From: Bacteroidales bacterium
GTDB taxonomy: Bacteria; Bacteroidota; Bacteroidia; Bacteroidales; UBA932
Direction: 5' to 3'
Length of the DNA stretch: 64,000 nucleotides
NCBI GenBank assembly: GCA_017429475.1
Contig: JAFROX010000006.1
Coordinates: 1-64,000 of the forward strand
Each line of letters begins with the position of its first letter. The stretch's first letter is position 1. Both the position numbers and the translations under genes were made by a program. Of this stretch, positions 56,160 to 60,857 are shown in pieces. The notes under the pieces were generated by a model, which saw only the letters and a list, made by a program, of their open reading frames with translations, was not told the origin of the DNA and made no database searches.

Positions 56160-57035
56160 ATGAAAGGCATCGTTCTCGCCGGAGGCTCCGGCACAAGGTT
56201 GTATCCCATCACAAAAGGCGTCAGCAAGCAGCTGCTTCCCATCTACGACAAGCCGATGATCTATTATCCTCTGAGCGTGCTGATGATGGCAGGCATCCGT
56301 GACATCCTTGTCATAAGTACCCCTTATGACCTTCCCGGATTCAAGCGCCTTCTCGGCGACGGTTCGGCCTTCGGTGTGAATCTTTCGTATGCGGAGCAGC
56401 CCAGCCCGGACGGACTGGCGCAGGCCTTCATCATAGGAAAAGAGTTCATCGGCGGCGACAGCGTCTGCCTCGTGCTCGGAGACAACATCTTCTACGGCGA
56501 TTCATTTACGCCGAAGCTGGCAGCCGCAGTGGCGGAGGCCGAGCGTAACGACAAGGCCACCATCTTCGGCTACTGGGTGAGCGATCCCCAGCGCTACGGA
56601 GTGGCCGAGTTCGACAAGGACGGCAACTGCGTGGGCATAGAGGAGAAACCTGCCGAGCCCAAGAGCAACTATGCCGTTGTAGGCCTCTATTTCTATCCCA
56701 ACGAAGTGGTAGGCATCGCTGAGAACGTAAAGCCTTCGGCAAGGGGCGAACTGGAGATTACCTCCGTCAACCAGGCCTTCCTTGAGGCTGGCAAGCTGAA
56801 AGTGCAGCTGCTGGGTCGCGGCTTCGCCTGGCTCGACACCGGCACCCACGATTCGCTTGCGGAGGCTTCCACTTTCTTCGAAGTCATCGAGAAGCGGCAG
56901 GGGCTTAAGGTGGCCTGTCTCGAAGAGATAGCGTACCGCAACGGCTGGATAGATGCCGACAAGGTGAGGGAAGACGCCGCACCGATGATCAAGAACCAGT
57001 ACGGACAATATCTGATGCGGCTGATTGAACAGTAA
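56160..57035 (+). CDS. rfbA: Glucose-1-phosphate thymidylyltransferase
   Basis: RfbA activates glucose-1-phosphate to dTDP-glucose, the entry to dTDP-rhamnose. 291 aa with the pyrophosphorylase signature [33 protein letters not shown] and [15 protein letters not shown] VLGDNIFYG. It starts the seven-gene plus-strand cluster and overlaps the next start (TAATG). Confidence 0.97.
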
Positions 57036-58552
57036 TGTCTAAGAAAAAGGGGATAATAACGGCACTTCTGTGCGGAATCGTGGTCGGTTGTGCGTTTATG
57101 GCGGGATTCCACTATACATACGCCAAGACATCGACCAACGAATACTGTATGTCGTGCCACGTCCACACCGATGCCGACGCAGCCTGGAAGCAGTCGATGC
57201 ACTACAGCAACGGCTCCGGCACGGTGACAGACTGCGCCGCCTGCCATCTTCCTCCAGAGGATATGCCGATACGCCATTTCCTGGCCAAGACCAAGATGGG
57301 AGCCAAGGACATCTGTTCACATCTCCTCAAGAATAAAGACAAGATAGACTGGGATGCGAAAGGCGAGATGGAGCACGCTATGAAGATAGTCTACAACGAG
57401 TCCTGCGTCAAATGCCACACCAATCTCTATCCCGAAGGAGTGAGCGACGAAGCCGTCGTTGCCCACCTCTACTACGAGGAGAACGCAGCCAAATACAAAC
57501 TGCAGTGCATCAGCTGCCATCTGGACGCCGGCCATTACGATCCCGACTACAAGCACGAGAGTATGAAGACCGTTCCGGCTGCAGCCGGACCTGTATATGA
57601 AACACGGGGAGAGATGACCGCCTTTGCAGATTTCACCGAGACCATTCCCGGAACTTCCGCTTCCATCAGGATGATAGCCGTTCCCGGCGGCTCGTTTGAG
57701 ATTGGCTCTCCGGCAGGGGAACCGCTTCGCAAGGACGACGAAGGCCCCCAGCGCAGGGTGGAACTGTCGCCGTTCTTTATGGCAGAGGTGGAGACGACCT
57801 GGGACCAGTTCTGGGCGTTCTATGGCGAGACGATGTCCGAAGGGCGAACCTCTCCCGAGACAATCTATGCCAACAATACCCGCGAGGACATAGACGCCGT
57901 CAGCGGCCCGACCCCGCCGTTCGGAGCTCCCGACCAGGGATGGGGAATGGGCTCGCGTCCCGCCATAACTATGACGCACTATGCGGCTGAGACGTTCTGC
58001 CAGTGGCTCTCCCTGAAGACCGGCCGCAAATACCGCCTGCCCACCGAGGCCGAGTGGGAATATGCTGCGCGCGGAGGTACCTCTGACCCGTATTATTTCG
58101 AGGGCAGTCCAAAGAAGTTCTCTGGAGAAGGTTTCCTGAAGGGTGTGTTCAAGGCTGATACGGCCGGCATCGCAAGCAACGTGGTCTATGCAGCCAACAG
58201 CGGCAACCGCACCCAGGAGCCGTCGCGCGTTGCGGCCAATCCGTTCGGGCTGAAGAATATGCTCGGCAACGTTATGGAATACTGCTCGGATTTCTATGCA
58301 GAAGATGCCTACAGCACGCTGCAGGATGGTGCCGTGAATCCTCGTGGCCCTCAGAGCGGAACGGAATATGTTGTCCGCGGAGGCTATTATGCTTCCGATG
58401 CGGCTGATGTGCGCTGCGCAGCCCGAAGCCACACCCAACACGATGCCTGGCTGAGGACCGACCCCCAGAACCCCAAGAGCATATGGTGGTATTCTGACAT
58501 CAAGGGAATCGGCTTCCGTGTGGTCTGTGAAGTGCCTGAAGAATTGAAATGA
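57035..58552 (+). CDS. Tetraheme NapC/NirT-like cytochrome c fused to a SUMF1-type domain
   Basis: 505 aa. One membrane helix (GIITALLCGIVVGCAFMAG) anchors a periplasmic tetraheme domain with CxxCH sites at CMSCH 38-42, CAACH 67-71, CVKCH 124-128 and CISCH 158-162. The context TSTNEYCMSCH...HYSNGSG resembles NapC/NirT/NrfH quinol dehydrogenases. Residues ~210-500 are a SUMF1/FGE fold (MIAVPGGSFEIGSP, RLPTEAEWEYAARGG, LKNMLGNVMEY, GIGFRVV). The two FGE cysteines are missing: RGGYYASDAADVRC replaces the Cys-rich loop, so it is probably a binding scaffold. No NrfA lies nearby; the next genes are exported sugar enzymes. Confidence 0.88.
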   Translation: MSKKKGIITALLCGIVVGCAFMAGFHYTYAKTSTNEYCMSCHVHTDADAAWKQSMHYSNGSGTVTDCAACHLPPEDMPIRHFLAKTKMGAKDICSHLLKNKDKIDWDAKGEMEHAMKIVYNESCVKCHTNLYPEGVSDEAVVAHLYYEENAAKYKLQCISCHLDAGHYDPDYKHESMKTVPAAAGPVYETRGEMTAFADFTETIPGTSASIRMIAVPGGSFEIGSPAGEPLRKDDEGPQRRVELSPFFMAEVETTWDQFWAFYGETMSEGRTSPETIYANNTREDIDAVSGPTPPFGAPDQGWGMGSRPAITMTHYAAETFCQWLSLKTGRKYRLPTEAEWEYAARGGTSDPYYFEGSPKKFSGEGFLKGVFKADTAGIASNVVYAANSGNRTQEPSRVAANPFGLKNMLGNVMEYCSDFYAEDAYSTLQDGAVNPRGPQSGTEYVVRGGYYASDAADVRCAARSHTQHDAWLRTDPQNPKSIWWYSDIKGIGFRVVCEVPEELK

Positions 58553-58576
58553 CGAATCAACAATAAATATATAACT

Positions 58577-59941: not shown

Positions 59942-59948
59942 CCGGATT

Positions 59949-60857
59949 ATGGACAGAAGGAATTTCCTCAAGACTACTGCGGCCGGAGCTGCCGCAATAG
60001 CCCTCGCAGGAGGCCCTGCAAGCGTGCTGACATCCTGCGCTTCCAAACCCGCGAAGTCCAAGGTCGCCCTGAACCTCTCGTTCCAGACCGGAATCGCAGT
60101 CGGCGAGAGCTACAGCGAGAAGTTCGATTATATGGAAAGCCTCGGCATCGTGGGTTATGAGCCTGGCGGACAGGAGTTGGTGAAGAATTACGACCAGATA
60201 GCCAAGGCGCTGGAAGGCAGGAACCTGAAGGTTTCAGCTATCTGCGCCGGATTCCGCGGTTTCATCCTTGCCGAAGATCCTGCCGTAAAGGCCGACTTCG
60301 ACAGTTCGATGCGCGAGATAATAGATGCTGCAGGACAGATCGGTTCCACCGGTGTGATAATGGTGCCGGCTTTCAATCACCAGAAGCCCTGCAAACCTCA
60401 TACGCTCGAGACAAGGGACTATCTCTGCGAGCAACTGCACGATCTCGGAGAATATGCGCTCTCGAAAGGCACTGTCGTAATCCTCGAGCCGCTGAACAGG
60501 GGAGAGGCGTTCTATATGAGACTCGTCGCCGACGCTGCGGCCATCTGCCGCGACAGCAACAGCGAAGGCGTGAAATGTATGGGCGACTTCTGGCATATGA
60601 AGGAAGAGACCAGCGACTACGGCGCTTTGATGTCTGCCGGGAAGCAGTATCTCCGCCATGTGCACATCGCCAGCCGCGGCCGTCGCGTCACTCCTGGCGA
60701 GGACGGCGAGAAGGACAACTACGTGGAAGGCTTCCGAGCGATGAAGGAACTGGAATTCCCTTACTTTATGTCTTTCGAGTGCGGCTGCGCCGGAGACCGT
60801 GCCGAGGCGAACACCAAGGCGGTGGAGCTGCTGCGCGCACAGTGGGAACAGGCATAA
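59949..60857 (+). CDS. Exported (Tat) sugar isomerase/epimerase lipoprotein
   Basis: 302 aa from the ATG at 59949. The signal MDRRNFLKTTAAGAAAIALAGG has the RRxFLK motif and the lipobox VLTSC. The body is an AP-endonuclease-2-like TIM barrel (LNLSFQTGIAVGESYSEKFDYMESLGIVGYEPGG, VVILEPLNRGEAF, MGDFWHMKEE, HVHIASRGRRV), with metal ligands Glu, Asp, His and Glu in FECG. It is 7 nt after the oxidoreductase. Related enzymes isomerise keto sugars or cleave keto-glycosides. Confidence 0.9.
   Translation: MDRRNFLKTTAAGAAAIALAGGPASVLTSCASKPAKSKVALNLSFQTGIAVGESYSEKFDYMESLGIVGYEPGGQELVKNYDQIAKALEGRNLKVSAICAGFRGFILAEDPAVKADFDSSMREIIDAAGQIGSTGVIMVPAFNHQKPCKPHTLETRDYLCEQLHDLGEYALSKGTVVILEPLNRGEAFYMRLVADAAAICRDSNSEGVKCMGDFWHMKEETSDYGALMSAGKQYLRHVHIASRGRRVTPGEDGEKDNYVEGFRAMKELEFPYFMSFECGCAGDRAEANTKAVELLRAQWEQA

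Follow-up and report, generated by a model that had tools for sequence, protein, structure and literature searches.

The DNA analysed here (the window) is a 64,000-nucleotide (nt) stretch of a Bacteroidales bacterium of the UBA932 lineage (GenBank assembly GCA_017429475.1, contig JAFROX010000006.1, positions 1 to 64,000 of the forward strand). It carries three consecutive genes for a membrane-anchored tetraheme cytochrome fused to a SUMF1-type domain (P0001), a Gfo/Idh/MocA-family protein (P0002) and a TIM-barrel protein (P0003), the last two with signals for twin-arginine (Tat) export. With somewhat better than even confidence, we propose that P0001 is an extracytoplasmic electron-transfer protein whose flavinylated SUMF1 domain joins P0002, exported with its nicotinamide adenine dinucleotide (phosphate) (NAD(P)) bound, to hemes and menaquinone. 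The proposal builds on an observed gene association, export and heme-binding signatures, a conserved sequence motif, ApbE genes near relatives of the SUMF1 domain, and the loss of the FGE cysteine pair.

A cytochrome–SUMF1 fusion encoded with two exported sugar enzymes

57035..58552, + strand: P0001, NapC/NirT-type tetraheme cytochrome fused to a SUMF1/FGE-like domain, membrane-anchored, 505 amino acids (aa)
58577..59941, + strand: P0002, Gfo/Idh/MocA-family Tat-exported lipoprotein
59949..60857, + strand: P0003, Tat-exported lipoprotein, TIM barrel of the xylose-isomerase-like kind; close relative PDB 3kws

The original prediction, made from the letters of the window, described three consecutive genes with gaps of 24 nt (P0001–P0002) and 7 nt (P0002–P0003), and the coordinates and strands agree, with all three genes on the + strand. 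Upstream, the stop codon of a nucleotidyltransferase gene overlaps the P0001 start ATG by one base. The predicted architecture of P0001, with one anchor, four CxxCH sites and a SUMF1-type domain, is borne out by the CxxCH count, by a single hydrophobic segment at about residues 7-25, and by Pfam matches to NapC/NirT (PF03264, 8e-27) and FGE-sulfatase (PF03781, 2e-37). Its two partners were likewise recognised correctly as twin-arginine lipoproteins: P0002 carries an RR motif and Cys31 within a lipobox-like stretch and matches GFO_IDH_MocA (9e-11; 43 bits against a cut-off of 24), and P0003 matches TAT_signal and AP_endonuc_2 (3e-25), the latter in keeping with the predicted TIM-barrel isomerase. 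The list of open reading frames (ORFs) starts P0003 at a TTG at 59886, but the Tat signal starts from the ATG at 59949. Chance does not account for the P0001 fusion, because full-length homologues (46-61% identity) occur in 21 further Bacteroidales genomes of our sample. The module's own genome (G000; assembly 80% complete) encodes TatC and also has a gene for cytochrome c assembly.

SUMF1 and Gfo/Idh genes are associated with and without the cytochrome

Among 198 Bacteroidales genomes (the order sample), the full-length fusion is present in 22 and a P0002-type Gfo/Idh (E<=1e-60) in 23, with both in 22 (Fisher 3e-28, a value that ignores relatedness). G160 is the sole genome of this sample with a P0002-type Gfo/Idh but no fusion; G154, with nothing but a NapC fragment at the end of a contig, was left out of the fusion count. 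Across 395 Bacteroidota genomes (the phylum sample), the SUMF1 part (E<=1e-60) was found in 36, Gfo/Idh (E<=1e-70) in 64 and both in 36, the two lists being compared by eye with the first 3 or 4 candidates per genome scored.

The association extends to gene order. Of 32 fusion loci, 31 have a Gfo/Idh gene next to the fusion; the 32 comprise 23 from the order sample (window included), 8 named loci and 1 from the phylum sample, where the named loci are the best 80 among the matches listed. The exception (L034, 8846-15801) is the second copy of the fusion in G112; it has no adjacent Gfo/Idh and lies beside a SusC/SusD pair. In L026 and L028 the adjacent Gfo/Idh is a divergent one and lies on the other strand, and in L087 the adjacent gene is split over two frames. 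Outside Bacteroidales, the proteins detected by a profile of the fusion are SUMF1 proteins that lack the NapC part and are mostly ~320-390 aa long, and a Gfo/Idh gene adjoins such standalone SUMF1 genes in 46 of 68 loci (27/33 random Bacteroidota loci and 19/35 named loci, the latter including Planctomycetota and Verrucomicrobiota). One genome, G038, has seven P0002-type Gfo/Idh matches with one fusion and one ApbE, counts that suggest a shared electron hub; a single fusion might serve several Gfo/Idh paralogues of the same genome.

The heme part of P0001 resembles NrfH

57146..57160, + strand: heme site 1, CMSCH, residues 38-42, invariant in the 20 rows of alignment A1
57233..57247, + strand: heme site 2, CAACH, residues 67-71, invariant in the 20 rows of A1
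57404..57418, + strand: heme site 3, CVKCH, residues 124-128, invariant in the 20 rows of A1
57506..57520, + strand: heme site 4, CISCH, residues 158-162, invariant in the 20 rows of A1

P0001 belongs to PF03264 (94.5 bits; cut-off 24.1) and has the four CxxCH sites and the single N-terminal membrane segment of that family. A profile of its heme part matches NrfH (2j7a) at 1.5e-9, and K85 and D92 of P0001, both invariant in the 20 A1 rows, are the aligned counterparts of NrfH K82 and D89 (NrfH residues numbered by hand count from the printed alignment), which we take to be quinol-binding residues. Because these residues align, the link between cytochrome and quinone that had been predicted is plausible at the level of sequence. 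At another aligned position, NrfH Met49 corresponds to His44 of P0001. A role as the NrfH that serves NrfA is rejected, as the 80% complete genome G000 contains no NrfA match and P0001 scores 56.3 bits against the NrfH equivalog TIGR03153, under its cut-off of 134.2. NrfA matches over the cut-off occur in 13 of the 24 genomes examined (the 22 fusion genomes, G160 and G154).

The SUMF1 domain lacks the FGE cysteines and has acquired two kinds of heme fusion

57671..58438, + strand: SUMF1/FGE-like domain lacking the cysteine pair of FGE; no other PF03781 match was found in the genome

FGE has a catalytic cysteine pair near the C-terminus. At the corresponding stretch (SDAADV in the window) no Cys is present in 20 of 20 rows, and a role in FGE-type sulfatase maturation is rejected on the missing pair. 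The best-scoring solved relative of the domain by profile is PvdO (2e-41); the PvdO equivalog NF051459 gives 87.7 bits, under its cut-off of 500. Close to the SUMF1 C-terminus lies a conserved DPQ.PKS.WW stretch.

In a tree of 83 rows, the family is separated (99/94) from another 11 SUMF1 rows, of which some have long branches. The 32 NapC fusions form a single clade (100/100), and fusions to PSCyt, found in five Verrucomicrobiota members that carry a PSCyt1 cytochrome c in place of NapC, are placed elsewhere. The SUMF1 family shows two separate kinds of heme fusion, and the presence of two unrelated heme domains on one family argues for an electron-transfer role.

A GldK/GldJ-type protein was not detected in G000, the whole of which (80% complete) gives one FGE-sulfatase match. 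A protein of 1728-1770 aa follows the PSCyt1–SUMF1 fusion in two Verrucomicrobiota (L110, 8992-14178; L112, 5516-10828), the L110 copy having no Pfam match. A 1034-aa Muribaculaceae protein (L159, 7689-10790) combines a dockerin domain with four FGE-sulfatase stretches.

ApbE genes and a flavinylation-like motif accompany the SUMF1 family

One gene cluster near standalone SUMF1 genes is ApbE, as Pfam shows for the 3 of its 13 members that were checked. ApbE lies within the fetched flank of 26/68 standalone SUMF1 loci (12/33 random, 14/35 named), where the ApbE profile was built from 13 named loci that match by construction and the 12/33 random loci are independent, and within that of 0/37 control SUMF1 loci, six of which are shorter than 6 kb, lowering the chance of ApbE detection. 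In 11 of the 26 loci the SUMF1 and ApbE frames are 0-75 nt apart, and in 3 the distance is ~0.5 kb; 10 loci have a spacing of 1.2-1.7 kb, enough for one gene, and the remaining 2 a larger one. A canonical target motif is absent from all other ORFs of 100 aa or more in 25 of the 26 ApbE-bearing loci, and 6 of the 26 hold no Gfo/Idh in the fetched DNA (L093 and L121, two of these six, start at the end of a contig), so that SUMF1 is the likelier ApbE target.

57893..57913, + strand: proposed ApbE flavinylation motif DAVSGPT, residues 287-293, with T293 as putative site of flavin mononucleotide (FMN) attachment, a predicted modification

The published ApbE motif is D-x-x-[ST]-G-A-[ST], with some changes tolerated according to the accessible portion of PMC12052999, and the window's DAVSGPT differs from it by one mismatch (P for A). 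The SUMF1 family as a whole has D-[AG]-[IV]-[ST]-[GR]-[PA]-[ST], a segment that is lacking or unrelated in the control SUMF1 rows of 120 bits or above; the control L139 has a motif-like string, but off the aligned place. In 93 SUMF1 ORFs (rows under 160 bits, the duplicates L050/L051, and L129, L138 and L159 left out), D is found at position 1 in 90, S/T at position 4 in 77, P/A at position 6 in 93 and S/T at position 7 in 93. The exact D-x-x-[ST]-G-A-[ST] is present in 5 of the 93, three of which are heme fusions.

The window has an ApbE gene of its own:

39830..40876, − strand: exported ApbE lipoprotein (FAD:protein FMN transferase), ~16 kb from the module, with no local link to P0001

No target gene was recognised beside this gene, and its product could flavinylate P0001.

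In two Maribacter loci (L117, 7872-10487; L093, 2-2547), SUMF1, a YceI-family gene and ApbE stand in a row with no Gfo/Idh in the fetched DNA. The YceI gene was identified by Pfam in L117 and, in L093, by belonging to the same cluster; a comparable gap is present in L190. YceI proteins bind isoprenoid quinones.

Proposed electron path

Tat exports folded, nucleotide-holding enzymes. The scheme that we infer, from NAD(P) retention and flavinylation to the electron path, its direction and the substrate, would begin with NAD(P)-bound P0002 folding in the cytoplasm and leaving via Tat. Since there would be no exchange with the cytoplasmic pool after export, the captive nucleotide would have to be re-oxidised (or re-reduced) in place. 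ApbE would attach FMN to T293 in the SUMF1 domain of P0001, and this FMN would take a hydride from NAD(P)H on P0002 and deliver its electrons one at a time to the four hemes, which in turn would exchange electrons with menaquinone at the NrfH-like site (K85, D92). P0003 might then isomerise or epimerise the resulting keto-sugar. Sugar oxidation feeding menaquinone is the likelier direction, and the reverse could also apply.

The original prediction cast the SUMF1 domain as a docking or glycan-binding part. It is probably more than that, because elsewhere it stands beside Gfo/Idh without a cytochrome, it bears an ApbE-like motif, and ApbE is encoded near its relatives. A broader proposition seems to us evenly balanced between true and false, namely that these SUMF1 proteins are a class of ApbE substrates with covalent FMN that act as dedicated re-oxidants of exported captive-NAD(P) dehydrogenases across Bacteroidota, Planctomycetota and Verrucomicrobiota, and that heme fusions have wired them to electron transport at least twice.

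A number of results weigh against this proposed path. The flavin step is most exposed: no ApbE is found in the 32 fusion loci (0/32), and PvdO has DGDTRPG at the motif position, without the terminal T/S, and together these are the main weakness of the flavin reading. Given this PvdO string, the motif may in part be a property of the fold. Within the 93 motifs, P replaces the published A in 84 and R replaces G in 43, and we found no experimentally tested example of the P/R variant in the literature. Half of the ApbE matches (13/26) are seeds of the ApbE profile. Genome-wide presence of ApbE was dropped as support, with no excess in fusion genomes (21/22) over Bacteroidales in general (180/198), and because so many Bacteroidales genomes have it, its presence in the module's own genome is uninformative. 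On the side of the partners, 22/68 standalone loci have no adjacent Gfo/Idh, owing in part to a contig end or an intervening gene, and only one of the five PSCyt1 fusions (L096) has a Gfo/Idh in the fetched DNA. Most standalone SUMF1 ORFs also lack CxxCH.

Alternative explanations

NADH is a two-electron hydride donor, and to our knowledge its direct electron transfer to heme c is no established reaction. This counts against a model in which the hemes exchange electrons directly with Gfo/Idh, SUMF1 only docks or binds glycan, and no flavin takes part, a model that we regard as unlikely. It also leaves unexplained the ApbE genes near standalone SUMF1 (26/68 against 0/37 in controls) and the conserved motif, although the conserved SUMF1–Gfo/Idh pairing would fit a docking domain, and PvdO was purified from E. 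coli without a detectable cofactor, as reported in the part of PMC6206403 available. The same portion of that paper describes PvdO as periplasmic, required for dihydropyoverdine oxidation and possibly in need of an electron transport partner, which, with the profile ranking of PvdO as best solved relative (2e-41), lends something to a different and similarly improbable model. Here SUMF1 would itself be an oxidoreductase of the PvdO kind with a sugar or aglycone as substrate, the DPQ.PKS.WW stretch could be its ligand site, the hemes or quinone would take the electrons, and Gfo/Idh would act before or after it on the same substrate. The PvdO equivalog score of 87.7 against a cut-off of 500 counts against this model, and the ApbE link is unexplained unless flavin is the SUMF1 cofactor, in which case this model merges with the flavin relay.

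Self-recycling is known in tightly NAD(P)-bound Gfo/Idh enzymes, such as glucose-fructose oxidoreductase and the NAD-dependent GH109-type glycosidases. If P0002 recycled its own NAD(P) in this manner, the cytochrome–SUMF1 protein would serve some other process of the operon. G160, with its Gfo/Idh and no fusion, and the 28/64 Gfo/Idh genomes of the phylum sample without a SUMF1 match at E<=1e-60 are in line with such independence. The converse is not seen: every one of the 22 fusion genomes in the order sample has a Gfo/Idh, as does every one of the 36 SUMF1 genomes in the phylum sample, and loci with the two genes side by side occur in Bacteroidota, Planctomycetota and Verrucomicrobiota. We accordingly rate self-recycling a shade below even the two preceding models, and prefer the flavin relay from P0002 through SUMF1 to the hemes.

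The sugar enzymes and their genomic context

In an alignment of 23 P0002 rows from several phyla, the Tat arginines are kept and G70, G72, K166 and H267 are invariant, and P0002 has the profile match, Rossmann glycine motif, EKP lysine and active-site His of the Gfo/Idh/MocA family. Against the BT_2158 glycoside 3-dehydrogenase family (NF058561), it scores 29.7 bits, under the cut-off of 750; neighbouring Gfo/Idh genes in L028 and L033, for which BT_2158 is the nearest family, are also under that cut-off. P0003 matches PDB 3kws ('putative sugar isomerase') at 6e-108 and 6wn6, a 3-keto-D-glucoside 4-epimerase, at 9e-23, and every sugar-isomerase equivalog that it matches is under its cut-off.

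A P0003-type isomerase is present in 9/198 Bacteroidales genomes, all 9 of them fusion genomes. TIM barrels related to the isomerase occur in 19/32 fusion loci, by a profile built from fusion and named loci, and in 22/33 random standalone loci, which are independent of that profile. These counts weaken the view that the isomerase is a constant third gene of the operon, and of the conserved neighbourhood expected for the fusion, the Gfo/Idh partner stands (31/32 loci) and the isomerase does so in part only (19/32). ThuA is present in 6/32 fusion loci, and 3-keto-disaccharide hydrolase genes lie near the fusion in L036.

In the window, the module is surrounded by deoxythymidine diphosphate (dTDP)-sugar genes, as the original prediction held. 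The setting does not carry over to other loci: the window's rfbA and rfbC have no counterparts in the other clustered loci (their clusters hold the window's own genes alone), and the cluster of its epimerase has further members in L033 and L080. A dTDP-sugar or exported-glycan role is unsupported, and the suggestion that the module modifies exported glycans rests on these non-conserved dTDP-sugar neighbours.

Significance and comparison with known systems

Re-oxidation of an exported captive-NAD(P) Gfo/Idh enzyme outside the cytoplasm is a problem unless the enzyme runs a closed cycle. If our proposal is true, a flavin-carrying SUMF1 protein would be an answer to captive NAD(P)H re-oxidation in a wide bacterial group, periplasmic sugar oxidation would feed respiration directly, and SUMF1 proteins whose family name implies sulfatase maturation would gain a function. 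Flavinylated extracytosolic electron transfer as such is already known, as the accessible text of PMC8238504 and PMC11334425 documents; 'sulfatase' and 'NapC' have 0 occurrences in the available main text of these two papers. In the literature searched, with preprints and most subscription journals outside its scope, we found no SUMF1-family member tied to sugar dehydrogenases and no paper on SUMF1 with ApbE or with NapC.

P0001 resembles the NapC/NirT quinol dehydrogenases (NrfH, NapC, CymA) in its one N-terminal anchor and four hemes, and is unlike them in carrying a SUMF1 domain at the C-terminus of the same chain. With PvdO and FGE/SUMF1 it has the domain family in common, whereas the FGE cysteines are absent from P0001, and the flavinylation-like motif ends in T/S in the P0001 family and in G in PvdO. 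The 3-keto-glycoside pathways of Bacteroides (BT_2158/BT2157) and Caulobacter (the LacABC lactose 3-dehydrogenase, in the part of PMC9007349 available) likewise combine Gfo/Idh with an isomerase, and the ThuA or 3-keto-disaccharide hydrolase genes near some fusion loci are a further likeness. They differ in that P0002 falls outside the BT_2158 family and that a dedicated flavin–heme re-oxidant is proposed for the module.

Another comparison is with the ApbE-flavinylated extracytosolic carriers, which include FMN_bind, NqrB/RnfD, DUF2271, DUF3570, Flavodoxin_4 and FMN_red in the portions of PMC8238504, PMC11334425 and PMC12052999 that were accessible. As in the SUMF1 family, these are exported redox proteins with a DxxSGAT-like motif, with apbE near relatives and with a proposed membrane electron relay. 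In contrast, the candidate carrier here is an FGE/SUMF1 domain whose motif mostly has P for A and often R for G, and it is paired with a sugar dehydrogenase of the NAD(P) type.

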